DNA of 64,000 nt from Isotricha intestinalis. Taxonomy: Eukaryota > Ciliophora > Litostomatea > Vestibuliferida > Isotrichidae. Numbering within the stretch: position 1 is the first letter of the stretch; the number at the start of each line of letters is the position of its first letter. The translations under genes were made by a program, and so were the position numbers. This document shows, in pieces, positions 1 to 9,863 of the stretch. The notes under the pieces were generated by a model. The model was not told the DNA's origin. It saw only the letters and a list, made by a program, of their open reading frames with translations, and did no database searches. The stretch is taken from the NCBI GenBank assembly GCA_023807065.1, contig JAJJLU010003467.1, forward strand, positions 41,800 through 105,799, in the 5' to 3' direction.

Positions 1-611
1 GTTTAAATAGAATTTTAAATAGTAATAACATAAATTTAAATTCAAAAAGAGAAAAAATTAATTCTTATTCAATAAATAAAAAAAATAATAAGAAAAATTT
101 AAAAAAGAATATAGATCATAGTTTAATAAAAGATAAAAATAAAAAAAATTATGAAAGTTCAATAGTAACAACAATTCATAATAAAAATTCAAATAATAAT
201 AATAAGAAAAATAATTATAACCACAATTTAAAACAAGAAAAAAATAAAGAAAATCATAATAATTGTATTACTAATTTAGAAAAACAAATTTTAGGTATAA
301 GGAATGATTATAATTTATATTTTAATACAAAACGAAATATAAAAGTGAAAAATATAAATTATAGTAAAGATAATAAATTAATGAATGATAAAAATAATAA
401 TAATAATAATAATCAATCAAAGAAAAAAATAAGATTTTATAAAAAGAATTATTCAATATTATTAAACTTTCCAAAAAATTCAATTTCCAATATTCTACGA
501 CGACGACTACGAGTAATAAAAAAAGTATTTCTTTATGAAAAAGAAATTCAAAAAATATATATAATTAAAAAATTATATAAGTATCCCCAATCCCCATATA
601 AAATTTATTAA
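1..611 (+). CDS. 5'-truncated Asn/Lys-rich protein, left part of a split gene
   Basis: A reading frame is open from base 3 with no stop until TAA at 609-611, so the gene starts left of the window. The roughly 200 visible residues are Asn, Lys, Ile and Ser rich, with poly-Asn near codons 130-136; no domain is recognisable. The frame enters a telomere-like repeat at 583-596 and ends 15 bases after it. The last eight residues (PQSPYKIY) are therefore encoded by the repeat and adjoining insert sequence and are probably not native. The frame resumes in phase at 1399 if the insert is removed (see 1399-2088). Function unknown. The GTG at 345 is internal and should not be taken as a start. Confidence 0.6.
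   Translation, partial: LNRILNSNNINLNSKREKINSYSINKKNNKKNLKKNIDHSLIKDKNKKNYESSIVTTIHNKNSNNNNKKNNYNHNLKQEKNKENHNNCITNLEKQILGIRNDYNLYFNTKRNIKVKNINYSKDNKLMNDKNNNNNNNQSKKKIRFYKKNYSILLNFPKNSISNILRRRLRVIKKVFLYEKEIQKIYIIKKLYKYPQSPYKIY
583..596 (+). repeat. Left telomere-like terminal inverted repeat
   Basis: ATCCCCAATCCCCA, 1.6 units of C4A2T. It is an exact inverted match to 1385-1398. Runs of four C or G are very rare elsewhere in this A+T-rich window, and a double C4 unit occurs nowhere else in it. Confidence 0.85.
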
Positions 612-688
612 ATATCAAAATAATTTCAATTTTAACTTAAAATATAAATTTGGTGAAAAAAGAATCTAAATAAAAACTTAATTTATAT

Positions 689-1168
689 TTAGAACATAGA
701 GAATAAGCATAATAAAGCAAAAATAGACATTTTAATAAAAGAAGAAATGGAAGTTTTATCAACACAAGTTTTTCCATCTTTAGTTTCTTTTCCTTCAGGA
801 CAAGCTTCACAAGCAGTTTTATCACTTTTAGGAATTTTTCCAGTACATTTAACACATAGATCATTATCATCATATTCTGCACAATCTGCAATTACAGGAT
901 GACATGCTTTTCCATCTTTTGTTTCTTCACCATTGCCACAAGCCTCACAAGTAGCTCCATTAGTAGCAGGGACTTTTGAATTCCCACAAGTTATACATGG
1001 TGCTGTTGATCCAGTTGGAGTACCATATTCAGTACAATCTTCTATTTTTGTAACACATATATCAGCATTATTAGAATCTACTCCTACTTTAACTTCAGTA
1101 TTTTGACATGCTGAACTAATTAAAGAAATTAATGATAATATAGTTAAAAGATATAAAAATTTTTTCAT
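689..1168 (-). CDS. Cys-rich GPI-anchored surface antigen-like protein
   Basis: 159 residues. Residues 1-20 form a signal peptide (MKKF, then a Leu/Ile/Ser core, cleavage near SSA-C21). The ectodomain has 14 cysteines (21, 38, 45, 58, 61, 74, 77, 89, 96, 105, 108, 120, 123, 135). They form two tandem modules, about 42-89 and 93-135, each with paired C-x2-C and ending CEAC..G.ETKDGK.C. A hydrophobic C-terminus (about 144-159) after a small-residue stretch (DKTSISS) looks like a GPI-attachment signal. This layout matches ciliate immobilization antigens (i-antigen/Ser type), though it is much shorter than most. Codon use is visibly richer in G+C than in neighbouring genes. It is the only gene inside the telomere-bounded insert. 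Confidence 0.8.
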   Translation of the reverse strand: MKKFLYLLTILSLISLISSACQNTEVKVGVDSNNADICVTKIEDCTEYGTPTGSTAPCITCGNSKVPATNGATCEACGNGEETKDGKACHPVIADCAEYDDNDLCVKCTGKIPKSDKTACEACPEGKETKDGKTCVDKTSISSFIKMSIFALLCLFSMF

Positions 1169-1384
1169 TTTATCTCTATATTTACTTAATTCATATATAT
1201 ATTAAGAATTTTTTATCATAATTTAATGAAACATAGGAGTTACAAATTTAAGAATATCACGAAAATAGTATTTTTAACGTTTAAATATTTCATAATATTT
1301 TTTTCTTTTATATTATGACCTTTAAAATTATAATATTTTAATATTTTTAGAAAAATGTTTCATTGATTATTGATTATAAATTAT

Positions 1385-1398
1385 TGGGGATTGGGGAT
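1385..1398 (-). repeat. Right telomere-like terminal inverted repeat
   Basis: TGGGGATTGGGGAT, the exact reverse complement of 583-596. It is followed directly by CAG at 1399-1401, where the host reading frame resumes. Confidence 0.85.
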
Positions 1399-2088
1399 CA
1401 GAATCTAAAAAGAGAAAACAAAATAAATAAATTATTAAAATATAAAAATAATCCAAAAAGCATAATAGAAAATAAGATAGAAAAGGAAAAAGAAAAGAAT
1501 GATGATAAATTAGATAATAATATTCATTTAAGAAATTCATCAAAATTATTAAGAGAAAATACAACTTTATTAAAAATAATAGAAAAAAATGAAAATAATG
1601 AAATTGAAGAAATTAAATTAATGAATGATATAAATGAAATTATGGGAAATGAACTTGATTTACCTCTTCCTTTTAATAATATTATGCTTTCTCCTTTAAG
1701 AGAAAATAAAGTAAATAATAATAATTTAAAAAATGTTAATAATAATAAGAATATTTATGATAATGATATAAATAATAAAGAATGTTTTTTTAATATGTTG
1801 TTTGATGAAAGTAATTTAGATTGTTATTGTAATTATGATAATAATTTTAATAATATAAAAAGTGTTGTGAAGAAAATTAAATTTAATCAAGTTATTGTTA
1901 ATTGTGGGAATTTTTTCTCGAAAAATAATAATAAATATTTAAAATATATTAAGTCATTTAATGAAAAATTCGAAGATGAAATTCGGTTAAATAAAGATAA
2001 AATAAATTGTTGTATTAGAAATGAAATAAATAATTTATCTTTTAATAGCACACAACCTGGCTCAAATAAAAAAGATATTAAAATATAA
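1399..2088 (+). CDS. Asn/Lys-rich protein, right part of a split gene
   Basis: The frame is open from 1351 (after a TAG at 1348-1350) to the TAA at 2086-2088, but has no ATG until codon 1621-1623, which is unusual for an independent gene here. Joining TAT (582-584) to CAG (1399-1401) gives one continuous frame with the left part, of about 195 + 229 residues. The product is Lys/Asn/Glu rich, with a predicted helical N-terminal half, a small Cys cluster (NLDCYCNYDNN) and a C-terminal segment with CGNFF and NKDKINCC. No family recognised. Whether the join happens in DNA or RNA, or never happens, cannot be decided here. Confidence 0.6.
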   Translation, partial: QNLKRENKINKLLKYKNNPKSIIENKIEKEKEKNDDKLDNNIHLRNSSKLLRENTTLLKIIEKNENNEIEEIKLMNDINEIMGNELDLPLPFNNIMLSPLRENKVNNNNLKNVNNNKNIYDNDINNKECFFNMLFDESNLDCYCNYDNNFNNIKSVVKKIKFNQVIVNCGNFFSKNNNKYLKYIKSFNEKFEDEIRLNKDKINCCIRNEINNLSFNSTQPGSNKKDIKI

Positions 2089-7706: not shown

Positions 7707-9863
7707 TTAATAATAACTAGAAACAAAACCATTTTGATCTCTTACACATTTAGGCATTTCACTAATATAAACTATTCCTTGATTAAAACCTTGATGTAAC
7801 TTTAAATCATTAATAACTTTTTCAGTTCCAAAATAAGGATGTTTCAAAATACCATAATTTTGATTATGTCCTAAAGTAATAGCATCAATATCATTAATAT
7901 TAACAGAAATTCCATTATTTAAAATTAAATTATACCAATAATCAATATAATATTCTTTAGGTTTTTTAATATTAATAGGAAATACCCAATTTCCATTATA
8001 GAAAATAGGATGATAAGGAGTGAATAAAACATTATTAATTTCAACAGCAAAATCCATTTTTTTAACTTTTTGAATAATTACACAATTAACAATACTTCCA
8101 TTAAAAAGAACATCACCTTTAATTAAATGTTTAACTTTTTTAAATTTATTATTTTTCAATTTTACAATTCCATTTCCATCAAAGCATCCTCCATAATAAT
8201 CCATAAATCTATCTAAATCATCTCTATTAAAAGAATTATTAGAATAATGATGTCTACCACCATAATGTTCTCTTTCTGGAGGTTGAAGATCTAAAAATAT
8301 TTTATTACATTTTTTCCTATATTCATTAAATTTATCTCCTCCATATAATTGAAGTGATTCATCTTTGAAATTTCCACATTGCTCTAAATAATGAAATCTT
8401 ACAAATGATCGTAAATAATCTTTTCCCCATTTATTATAATATTGATTCTCAAATGCTTTTTGAACTTGACCATGATTTGCATGTTCATTTATTAAATCTA
8501 TTAATATTTTATTTAAAAAATCAGTTTTTATATTTAAAGTTTCTATCTCTTTATATAATGCTTCTATTTCTTTTAATGCATTACTTTTATCTTGTTTTTC
8601 TAAATTTGAATTTATTAAATCTATTAATCTAAAACGATAATATTGATTTAAAATATCTTTCATTTCATTTTCATCGTTAATTTCCTTTCCAATATCAACA
8701 TTAAATTCTTGATTAGTACTTTTTAAAACTAATTTAATTTTAGTATCATTAATGTCATTTTTGTTGACTTTACAAATGAAATTTCTGGAAGAATCTTGAT
8801 AAAAACCTCCAATAGGATAAGATTCATTTAAAACCTTATTTTGAACATGAACAAAGCAATTATTAGTGGTTAAATTGAGAATATTACTCATAAAATTAAT
8901 AAATATAGTTCCAACCATAGTACAATCAGGACAATAACCATAAATTCCATTTCCAATTTTAGCAATATCTTCCATTAAAACACTATCAACATCATATCCA
9001 AAAGCAAAAGTATTAATAATGAAATTAACATCCATATCACTTAATATTTCTTTTAATGAAGGAATTATTCCTAAAGGAGGATTGATATTTGGTTCACCAT
9101 CAGTAAATAATAATAATTGAATATTATAATTAGAATTAAGATATTTTTTAGTAGAATTAATTCCTACTCTTAGTCCATCCCATAAATTTGTACAACCATC
9201 AGGATGAATATTTTTAATTTGTTCCAATGACATTTCTCTTCCAGTTTTATCCATTTTAATTGGTTCTAAAAGTATCTTTGCTTTATTTTCAAAAGTAATT
9301 AAACATAACATATCATCATCTTCTAAAGTAGAAATAATTGTATTCATTGAATGTTTAACTAATTGTAATCTGGAAAAAGATAAATCTTCCATTCCTTTTA
9401 CTGTTTCACATGCATCTGAACCCATAGATCCTGATATATCTAATATTGATATTAATAATAATGGTTCTCTTTTTTCAGGAGGATTTAATTTTGCCTTTAT
9501 ATTTATCACATAAGAATCTGTTTCTTTTGGATTTTTTATATAATTTGCTGATATTGAATTTAATGTTAATTTCTCTTTTTCTTTTGGAATAAATGGCTTT
9601 TTATCTTCTTCTGATACTTTTATATTTGGATTTTCCTTTAAAAAATTTTCAATTAAATTTTTTAAAGCATAATTTATTTTTCCTTCTTCAAATTTCATTG
9701 GAATTTTTGTTAAGGGAGAACAGGGATTTTGTTTTAATGCTTTTTCTATTGTTGTTTTTTCATAAGTTTGACCATCTGGAAATATCATTGGAGTCTCCAT
9801 TATTTCTAATGATATTGGATCAATAAATTCTTTGGGGATTTTTACTTTTTTTTCAGAATCCAT
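7707..9863 (-). CDS. U-box / vWA / Hint-domain protein
   Basis: 718 residues with three parts. Residues 8-78 are a U-box (PKEFIDPISLEIMETPMIF..GQTYEK), the E2-binding fold of ubiquitin ligases. Residues 135-310 are a von Willebrand A domain with a MIDAS motif D142-I-S-G-S146, a conserved downstream Thr (DGCTNLWDG) and LLFTDGEPN. From Cys560 to about 700 is a Hint (hedgehog/intein) domain: C560 follows Gly-Gly, LIKGDVL is block A-like, and FTPYHP (614-619) carries the TxxH motif of block B. Hint modules of the BIL/hog type are known in ciliates and can cleave or ligate at the leading Cys. No classical C-terminal HN follows, so any activity would more likely be N-terminal cleavage than splicing. 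The substrate is unknown. Confidence 0.85.
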   Translation of the reverse strand: MDSEKKVKIPKEFIDPISLEIMETPMIFPDGQTYEKTTIEKALKQNPCSPLTKIPMKFEEGKINYALKNLIENFLKENPNIKVSEEDKKPFIPKEKEKLTLNSISANYIKNPKETDSYVINIKAKLNPPEKREPLLLISILDISGSMGSDACETVKGMEDLSFSRLQLVKHSMNTIISTLEDDDMLCLITFENKAKILLEPIKMDKTGREMSLEQIKNIHPDGCTNLWDGLRVGINSTKKYLNSNYNIQLLLFTDGEPNINPPLGIIPSLKEILSDMDVNFIINTFAFGYDVDSVLMEDIAKIGNGIYGYCPDCTMVGTIFINFMSNILNLTTNNCFVHVQNKVLNESYPIGGFYQDSSRNFICKVNKNDINDTKIKLVLKSTNQEFNVDIGKEINDENEMKDILNQYYRFRLIDLINSNLEKQDKSNALKEIEALYKEIETLNIKTDFLNKILIDLINEHANHGQVQKAFENQYYNKWGKDYLRSFVRFHYLEQCGNFKDESLQLYGGDKFNEYRKKCNKIFLDLQPPEREHYGGRHHYSNNSFNRDDLDRFMDYYGGCFDGNGIVKLKNNKFKKVKHLIKGDVLFNGSIVNCVIIQKVKKMDFAVEINNVLFTPYHPIFYNGNWVFPINIKKPKEYYIDYWYNLILNNGISVNINDIDAITLGHNQNYGILKHPYFGTEKVINDLKLHQGFNQGIVYISEMPKCVRDQNGFVSSYY

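Follow-up and report, generated by a model that had tools for sequence, protein, structure and literature searches.

A telomere-capped, gene-sized segment within an interrupted gene of Isotricha intestinalis

An 816-bp segment that carries a complete antigen-like gene between two telomere-type caps lies inside another protein gene of Isotricha intestinalis, and we consider it probable, though by no means assured, that a telomere-capped gene-sized molecule was captured there, along with filler DNA, as end joining repaired a break in the host gene. Positions given without a contig refer to the window, that is, the whole 64,000-nt stretch analysed (G000:C903:41800-105799), which belongs to a 105.8-kb contig (C903) in an assembly of 57.3 Mb and 2153 contigs. 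The long reading frames of the window are open under the standard code, for which reason ciliate code 6 was dropped; no RNA family or tRNA was found in the window. One of its other genes (7707-9863, minus strand) encodes a 718-aa protein with a U-box, a von Willebrand A domain, a Vwaint stretch and a Hint-type Vint domain (Pfam). Muniziella cunhai, Balantidium ctenopharyngodoni and Entodinium caudatum are litostomes. The genetic code and telomere unit found here match those of such gut ciliates, going by the unit and the standard code given in excerpts of the papers: the standard code with CCCCAAT telomeres for M. cunhai (PMC11316547), and the CCCCAAT unit for B. ctenopharyngodoni (PMC10978948) and E. 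caudatum (PMC6211341).

The capped segment and its gene

The initial annotation had described exact 14-bp inverted ends, oriented as on a linear chromosome, and double C4/G4 units unique in the window, and each of these points was confirmed. ATCCCCAATCCCCA occurs as an exact copy at 583-596 and its exact inverted counterpart TGGGGATTGGGGAT at 1385-1398, where 3e-5 exact copies of the 14-mer would be expected in the window under its first-order Markov model. At up to three mismatches the window holds one further site (7982-7995, three mismatches), and CCCCAATCCCC and GGGGATTGGGG are confined, window-wide, to the two caps. The left cap (583..596, minus strand) presents two telomere units with the C4 strand outward, as at the left end of a chromosome, and the right cap (1385..1398, plus strand) two units with the G4 strand outward, which is the orientation of the assembly's contig ends as printed. 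The two caps share one terminal phase, and the inverted repeat that they form measures exactly 14 bp and extends neither outward nor inward: comparison of the inner 40-bp flanks of the caps gave a local score of 11, reached in 878 of 1000 shuffles.

Each cap is made up of two telomere units of the organism itself, since the 14-mer is found at contig ends and those ends read (CCCCAAT)n, with some variant units; the comparison with the true telomere unit that had been proposed as a check thus gave the same unit, CCCCAAT. With up to one mismatch allowed, the assembly contains 1454 + 1602 occurrences of the 14-mer (overlaps included); among the matches listed, those on the minus strand are at the very start of a contig, and those on the plus strand, where the contig's length is known, at its very end. 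The passage from cap to body at the end of contig C4 has the form CCCCAATCCCCATATAAA, the same as in the capped segment. Each cap has only two units, whereas at least four G4/C4 runs occur in the outer 80 bases of 28 of the 32 contig ends counted; two of the 32 have just two runs. Many telomere arrays (L044-L071, contig ends) contain one 6-nt unit (GGGGAT) amid the 7-nt units, and 37 of 54 matches are followed by G, most of those on contigs of known size lying at the contig end. Many of the printed arrays stop at GGGG or GGG.

Between the caps is a complete 159-aa ORF (689..1168, minus strand; 480 bp), with a 5' flank of 216 bp (1169..1384, G+C 0.134) and an AT-rich 3' flank of 92 bp (597..688, G+C 0.098). 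A complete gene with short flanks, bounded on both sides by the organism's own telomere unit with its G strand 3' outward, is what a nanochromosome would present. Ciliate somatic nanochromosomes, including those of B. ctenopharyngodoni as described in part of the paper, likewise have one gene, short AT-rich flanks and telomeres (CCCCAAT) at both ends (PMC10978948), but the present segment is embedded in another gene of a 105.8-kb contig and bears just two units at each end.

The annotation had placed one complete surface-antigen gene in the 816 bp; the completeness of the ORF stands, and the name 'surface antigen' would follow from the architecture, which by eye begins like a signal peptide, contains cysteine pairs and KETKDGKxC-type motifs and ends in a hydrophobic tail, and which presumably resembles that of the ciliate immobilisation antigens. 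A database search yielded 20 relatives at 45-98% identity, and in the 12 of these that were aligned with it most cysteines are kept. Its own genome gave 10 tblastn matches, self included. No Pfam family scored above cut-off, and no relatives of the protein (P0006) were found in the viral collection.

The assembly gave neither a second copy of the capped segment, the next-best DNA match being one of 79% that spans 335 bp, nor a free linear copy, only the integrated one. As the shortest contig of known length is 10,299 bp, a molecule below 1 kb may have been filtered out of the assembly. The two closest antigen proteins are encoded on contigs that measure 814 and 907 bp; of the 20 relatives, 9 are on contigs below 1 kb. 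We rejected this as a sign of free nanochromosomes, because a control p23-like gene behaves likewise: 85 of the best 120 of its 201 relatives are on contigs below 1 kb, and its closest (98%) is on one of 9291 bp (counts below 1 kb made by hand).

The interrupted host gene and the make-up of the insertion

The 5' part of the host gene occupies 1..494 of the window (plus strand), with the frame open up to the insertion and with the relatives P0001-P0003 aligning throughout; the start codon (ATG) is at C903:41397, ahead of the window's first position, and tblastn of P0001 matches C903:41397-42353 at 93%. The 3' part (1399..2088, plus strand), recognised by frame and relatives, resumes with CAG and runs for 229 codons and a stop, an open length reached by none of 5000 random sequences (longest 101). 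P0001 (526 aa), P0002 and P0003 are respectively 98, 93 and 67% identical in the alignment, and 88, 81 and 53% by BLASTP over residues 250-558. All three are uninterrupted at LLNFPKNSISNI/QNLKREN (SNI/QNLKREN; slash, point of insertion) or a variant of it, and all three are without the capped segment and also without the 30 residues upstream of it (window 495-584). The assembly also contains a paralog (C962:28707-30251) whose 522 codons form one unbroken open frame; it is 67% identical to P0001 and is the only full uninterrupted match among the scored candidates; C903 itself matches P0001 in two pieces, the second with two stops.

Because three relatives and one paralog read through, and because the relatives lack the 30 codons upstream, the host gene was formerly continuous, and the true insertion is 495-1398, 904 bp, with no host residue lost. 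The host gene is now interrupted by it. The empty site would be expected to read approximately AATATTCAGAATC. Thus the capped segment at 583..1398 was rightly recognised, but as judged against the relatives the inserted DNA starts at 495 and not at 583. An insertion of 814 bp with duplication of AT was considered and given up: removal of 814 bp at the AT repeat does yield one frame of 558 codons (removal of 815 or 816 bp does not), the host frame being open through 495-584, but the relatives are without another 30 codons, and this version was replaced by the 904-bp one. The empty site of the 814-bp model has no match in the assembly at up to three mismatches, a result that is uninformative for the 904-bp model.

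Elsewhere in the assembly, C503:21765-22142 encodes 126 residues that are 90% identical to the C-terminal part of P0001, the remainder of which has no match at that locus, so that this is perhaps a partial duplicate of the host gene. Weaker matches to P0001 are on C74 and C721, and no relatives of P0001 were found in the viral collection.

The 90 bp that precede the segment are of two kinds. The first is a 19-bp filler, CTACGACGACGACTACGAG (495..513, plus strand), absent from P0001-P0003, with a G+C content of 0.579 (58%) vs. 13-23% for the window in 2-kb steps. At up to three mismatches it occurs at one other place in the assembly (22 for a reversed control pattern), and no source for it was found there, that best other site being three mismatches off. 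The second is a 71-bp piece (514..584, plus strand) that equals C1272:7700-7777 save for a 7-bp gap (E 9.9e-25, and alignment), with a weaker match (79%) on C1509. Past this piece C1272 reads AAGTAT/ACATTC and the window AAGTAT/CCCCAATCCCC. A telomerase-RNA origin of this flank was dropped, C1272 having no continuation into template-like sequence.

The joints share little. AT (583-584) is common to the 71-bp piece and the cap at their joint, the joint of filler and 71-bp piece has no common base, and each host joint has one common base (C, T), amounting to a direct repeat of TC only; a single common base at a joint does not exceed chance expectation. Direct repeats around the 904-bp insertion are at most 2 bp long.

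Origin of the insertion

We propose that a double-strand break occurred in the host gene, at which a linear gene-sized molecule of macronuclear type, bearing the antigen-like gene and two telomere units at each end, would have been caught along with the 19-bp filler and a 71-bp copy or fragment of another locus, and that end joining then closed the break, interrupting the host with no residue lost. This reading is drawn from the anatomy of the insertion: a filler, a copied fragment and a complete capped molecule are joined through 0-2 common bases, as end-joining repair of a break would leave them, against relatives and a C962 paralog that are empty. In these respects (own telomere unit, host continuity and mosaic make-up) the earlier suggestion of a capped gene-sized molecule integrated into another gene is supported. 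We infer that a free chromosome had been captured, that a non-homologous or microhomology-mediated mechanism joined the pieces, and that all this took place in a single event. Counting against capture are the free copy that was not found, the small number of units per cap, and the common phase of the caps, which is also expected of a transposon; furthermore, the open frame through 495-584 and the exact resumption of frame upon removal of 814 bp would fit two separate events.

There are partial precedents. Interstitial telomeric sequences were inserted at double-strand breaks in primates, rodents and horse, according to the parts of two papers that we consulted (PMC7215372, PMC8537989). As here, telomere-type DNA was placed in a break and is seen against an empty relative, with a flank of other origin possible; the difference is that a telomere array (sometimes with telomerase-RNA copies beside it) was inserted in those cases, and here a whole gene-sized segment capped on both sides in the orientation of a chromosome. 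A captured nanochromosome was not named in the titles or abstract openings that a limited open-access search returned.

The alternative that survives best, which we nonetheless regard as unlikely, is an element of TBE or MITE type that carried the antigen gene and transposed to this site, so that the telomere-like ends would be transposase sites and AT (or TA) the target duplication. It could have gone first to a site like that on C1272 and later moved with 71 bp of flank, or else 495-584 could be an older in-frame insertion, with the capped segment arriving later at AT, a two-event version that needs the same right limit for both. The frame restored by the 814-bp removal speaks for an element, as does a MITE family of the assembly whose ends read TATCCCCAATCCCC. 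These partly palindromic elements, for which 47 stretches spread over 18 contigs gave matches, start TATCCCCAATCCCCC(C)TATATTAAAT and measure 143 to 246 bp where they are clearest. On 16 contigs 25 ends could be read by eye, and 23 of these have TA on the outside, namely 10 of 11 left ends (exception, C1470) and 13 of 14 right ends (C1298 unclear). Those 16 contigs are 14 of the 18 matched ones plus C164 and C1200; C964, C1319, C1975 and C2006 were left out, as were ends decayed beyond recognition. In its outer 13 bp and its phase the capped segment agrees with the MITEs, and it has TA on its left.

The resemblance ends there. The end of the MITE family is ATCCCCAATCCCCC(C)TATATTAAAT at a TA target, and its terminal repeats go on with TATATTAAAT-like sequence, but those of the capped segment do not, only the outer 13 bp being common, and its right flank is TC, not TA. 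Comparison of the inner 40 bp gives 27 for MITE vs. MITE and 15 and 12 for MITE vs. the two segment ends (12.5 is the shuffle mean of another pair). That the ends inside the caps do not resemble each other argues for a chromosome rather than an element with terminal inverted repeats (TIRs). The insertion's left limit is 88 bp outside the cap, the segment was found in one copy only, no transposase ORF lies between the caps, and the only match in the assembly to DDE_3, the transposase family searched, carries four stops. Among the MITEs, telomere-type ends TATCCCCAATCCCCCCTATATTAAAT at TA are seen at L072:1-168 (C474), L083:1501-1643 (C276), L077:783-1028 (C1470) and others; copies lie less than about 100 bp from the telomere-capped ends of C371, C422 and C543, and within 250 bp of contig ends with no visible telomere on C474, C1200, C1298 and C2092.

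The target site duplication of Tc1/mariner elements other than TBEs is TA. Neither this nor the ANT of TBEs is present here: AGT and CAG are beside the caps and TC around the 904 bp, and AT would be duplicated only on the assumption that the left 90 bp arrived earlier, in an event of their own. In Oxytricha TBEs, as described in part of the paper, inverted telomere units likewise bound a segment inside other sequence, but they are one part of a TIR of 78 bp (TBE1) or 112-117 bp (TBE2.2), and those elements have an ANT target duplication and three ORFs; the inverted repeat of the window segment is pure telomere unit, stops at 14 bp and is no longer than a telomere tip, and the segment has no transposase (PMC4724952). 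The small TBE-like element suggested earlier is accordingly left as the weaker of the two original readings, with no repeat past the telomere units, no second copy, no direct repeat above 2 bp and a left limit 88 bp outside the cap. The Tel-1 elements of Tetrahymena, transposon-like and with telomere repeats at their ends, are similar in having internal telomere units beside mobile-looking DNA; they differ in being germline-limited, and the comparison is with their description only.

We also judge it quite unlikely that the arrangement is a chimera, made of unrelated molecules joined in amplification, library preparation or assembly. Internal telomere-type junctions are many in the assembly, and for B. 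ctenopharyngodoni about 3% of contigs have embedded telomeres, called chimeras or artefacts after PCR checks in the part of that paper seen (PMC10978948). Such a chimera is improbable here, however, because its path would have to quit the host gene, link three unrelated pieces and re-enter the gene at the very next codon; and the contig carries the insertion, the sole full uninterrupted match among the scored candidates being the 67% paralog.

Least probable of all, and by our estimate improbable outright, is that germline-limited DNA (an internal eliminated sequence or a germline arrangement) entered the assembly while the somatic gene is intact, for although the host frame is destroyed by the insertion, as it would be by an eliminated sequence, and the relatives' proteins may represent the somatic form, the sole direct repeat around it is TC, a piece matching C1272 is not expected in an eliminated sequence, and the assembly is probably mainly somatic, as many of its contigs end in telomeres.

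Internal telomere-type sites and implications

A palindrome of two 10-nt telomere seeds head to head, GGGGATTGGGCCCAATCCCC, occurs inside contigs at 47 places in near form, 32 of them exact (counted by hand from the list), and at none for a reversed-pattern control; examples are C20:13102-13121, C164:66095-66114, C601:11036 and 12670, and C1823:7632 and 11459. Five of the 32 exact palindromes had their flanks inspected, and at none of them did a further full telomere unit follow to the left or right, which speaks against full telomeres having been ligated at random; near-form palindromes on C79, C650 and C1296 have extra, irregular units. The palindrome may represent a chromosome-breakage site that was left uncut and that, once cut, would give ends that prime telomerase, or it may be the product of a telomere fusion. 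In part of a paper on Oscheius tipulae, the elimination motif is by implication palindromic and spans the telomere addition site (PMC13370393). A limited search of the open-access literature found no paper that joins Litostomatea, chromosome breakage, germline and telomeres. On C221 a reading frame runs through a telomere-type site. C733 (L074, C733:5000-9900) carries two copies of one telomere-type site at a spacing of 2994 bp; 261 of 261 bases around the site are identical, as are 1710 of 1907 along the stretch at that shift, from which we take this to be a tandem duplication of about 3 kb.

The initial annotation had proposed a search of the assembly for other bounded segments. C1296 has a segment of about 1.67 kb between two telomere-telomere junctions, its neighbours being other telomere-type ends; by eye, MORN-like repeats EGEYLNGKRNGKGKEY are encoded there (L076:1311-2471, minus strand) in a frame broken by stops, and it is possibly a decayed nanochromosome. 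C601 and C1823 have two junctions each, 1634 and 3827 bp apart. Among internal sites with known surroundings, the window segment alone is capped at both ends and sits directly within a single gene. The antigen relatives covered, on C137, C1450 and C2051 (those on C997 and C1979 were left out), are unbounded, with no internal telomere-type unit in the flanks examined; the relative on C137 is about 1.3 kb from a telomere-capped contig end, and that on C2051 has a lone telomere-type unit 4.3 kb off. These relatives give no support to the proposal that capped segments have been a route of antigen-gene dispersal.

Telomere caps are supposed to bar chromosome ends from break repair. If capture is the true account, short ends of the ciliate somatic nucleus do enter end joining, and antigen genes would have a simple route by which to change neighbourhood. 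The locus suggests that the repair of DNA breaks can capture such very small chromosomes. With its empty paralog and relatives it is also a test case for sorting real internal telomeres from assembly chimeras; the one litostome genome paper that we consulted on this point treats embedded telomeres as artefacts (PMC10978948). We advance only tentatively, as a possibility that we rate well below even, the broader idea that whole telomere-capped gene chromosomes can re-integrate into larger chromosomes in these ciliates, here moving a surface-antigen gene to a new locus. Were such re-integration to occur in the germline or reach it, it would be a heritable path of gene dispersal with neither a transposase nor an RNA intermediate.
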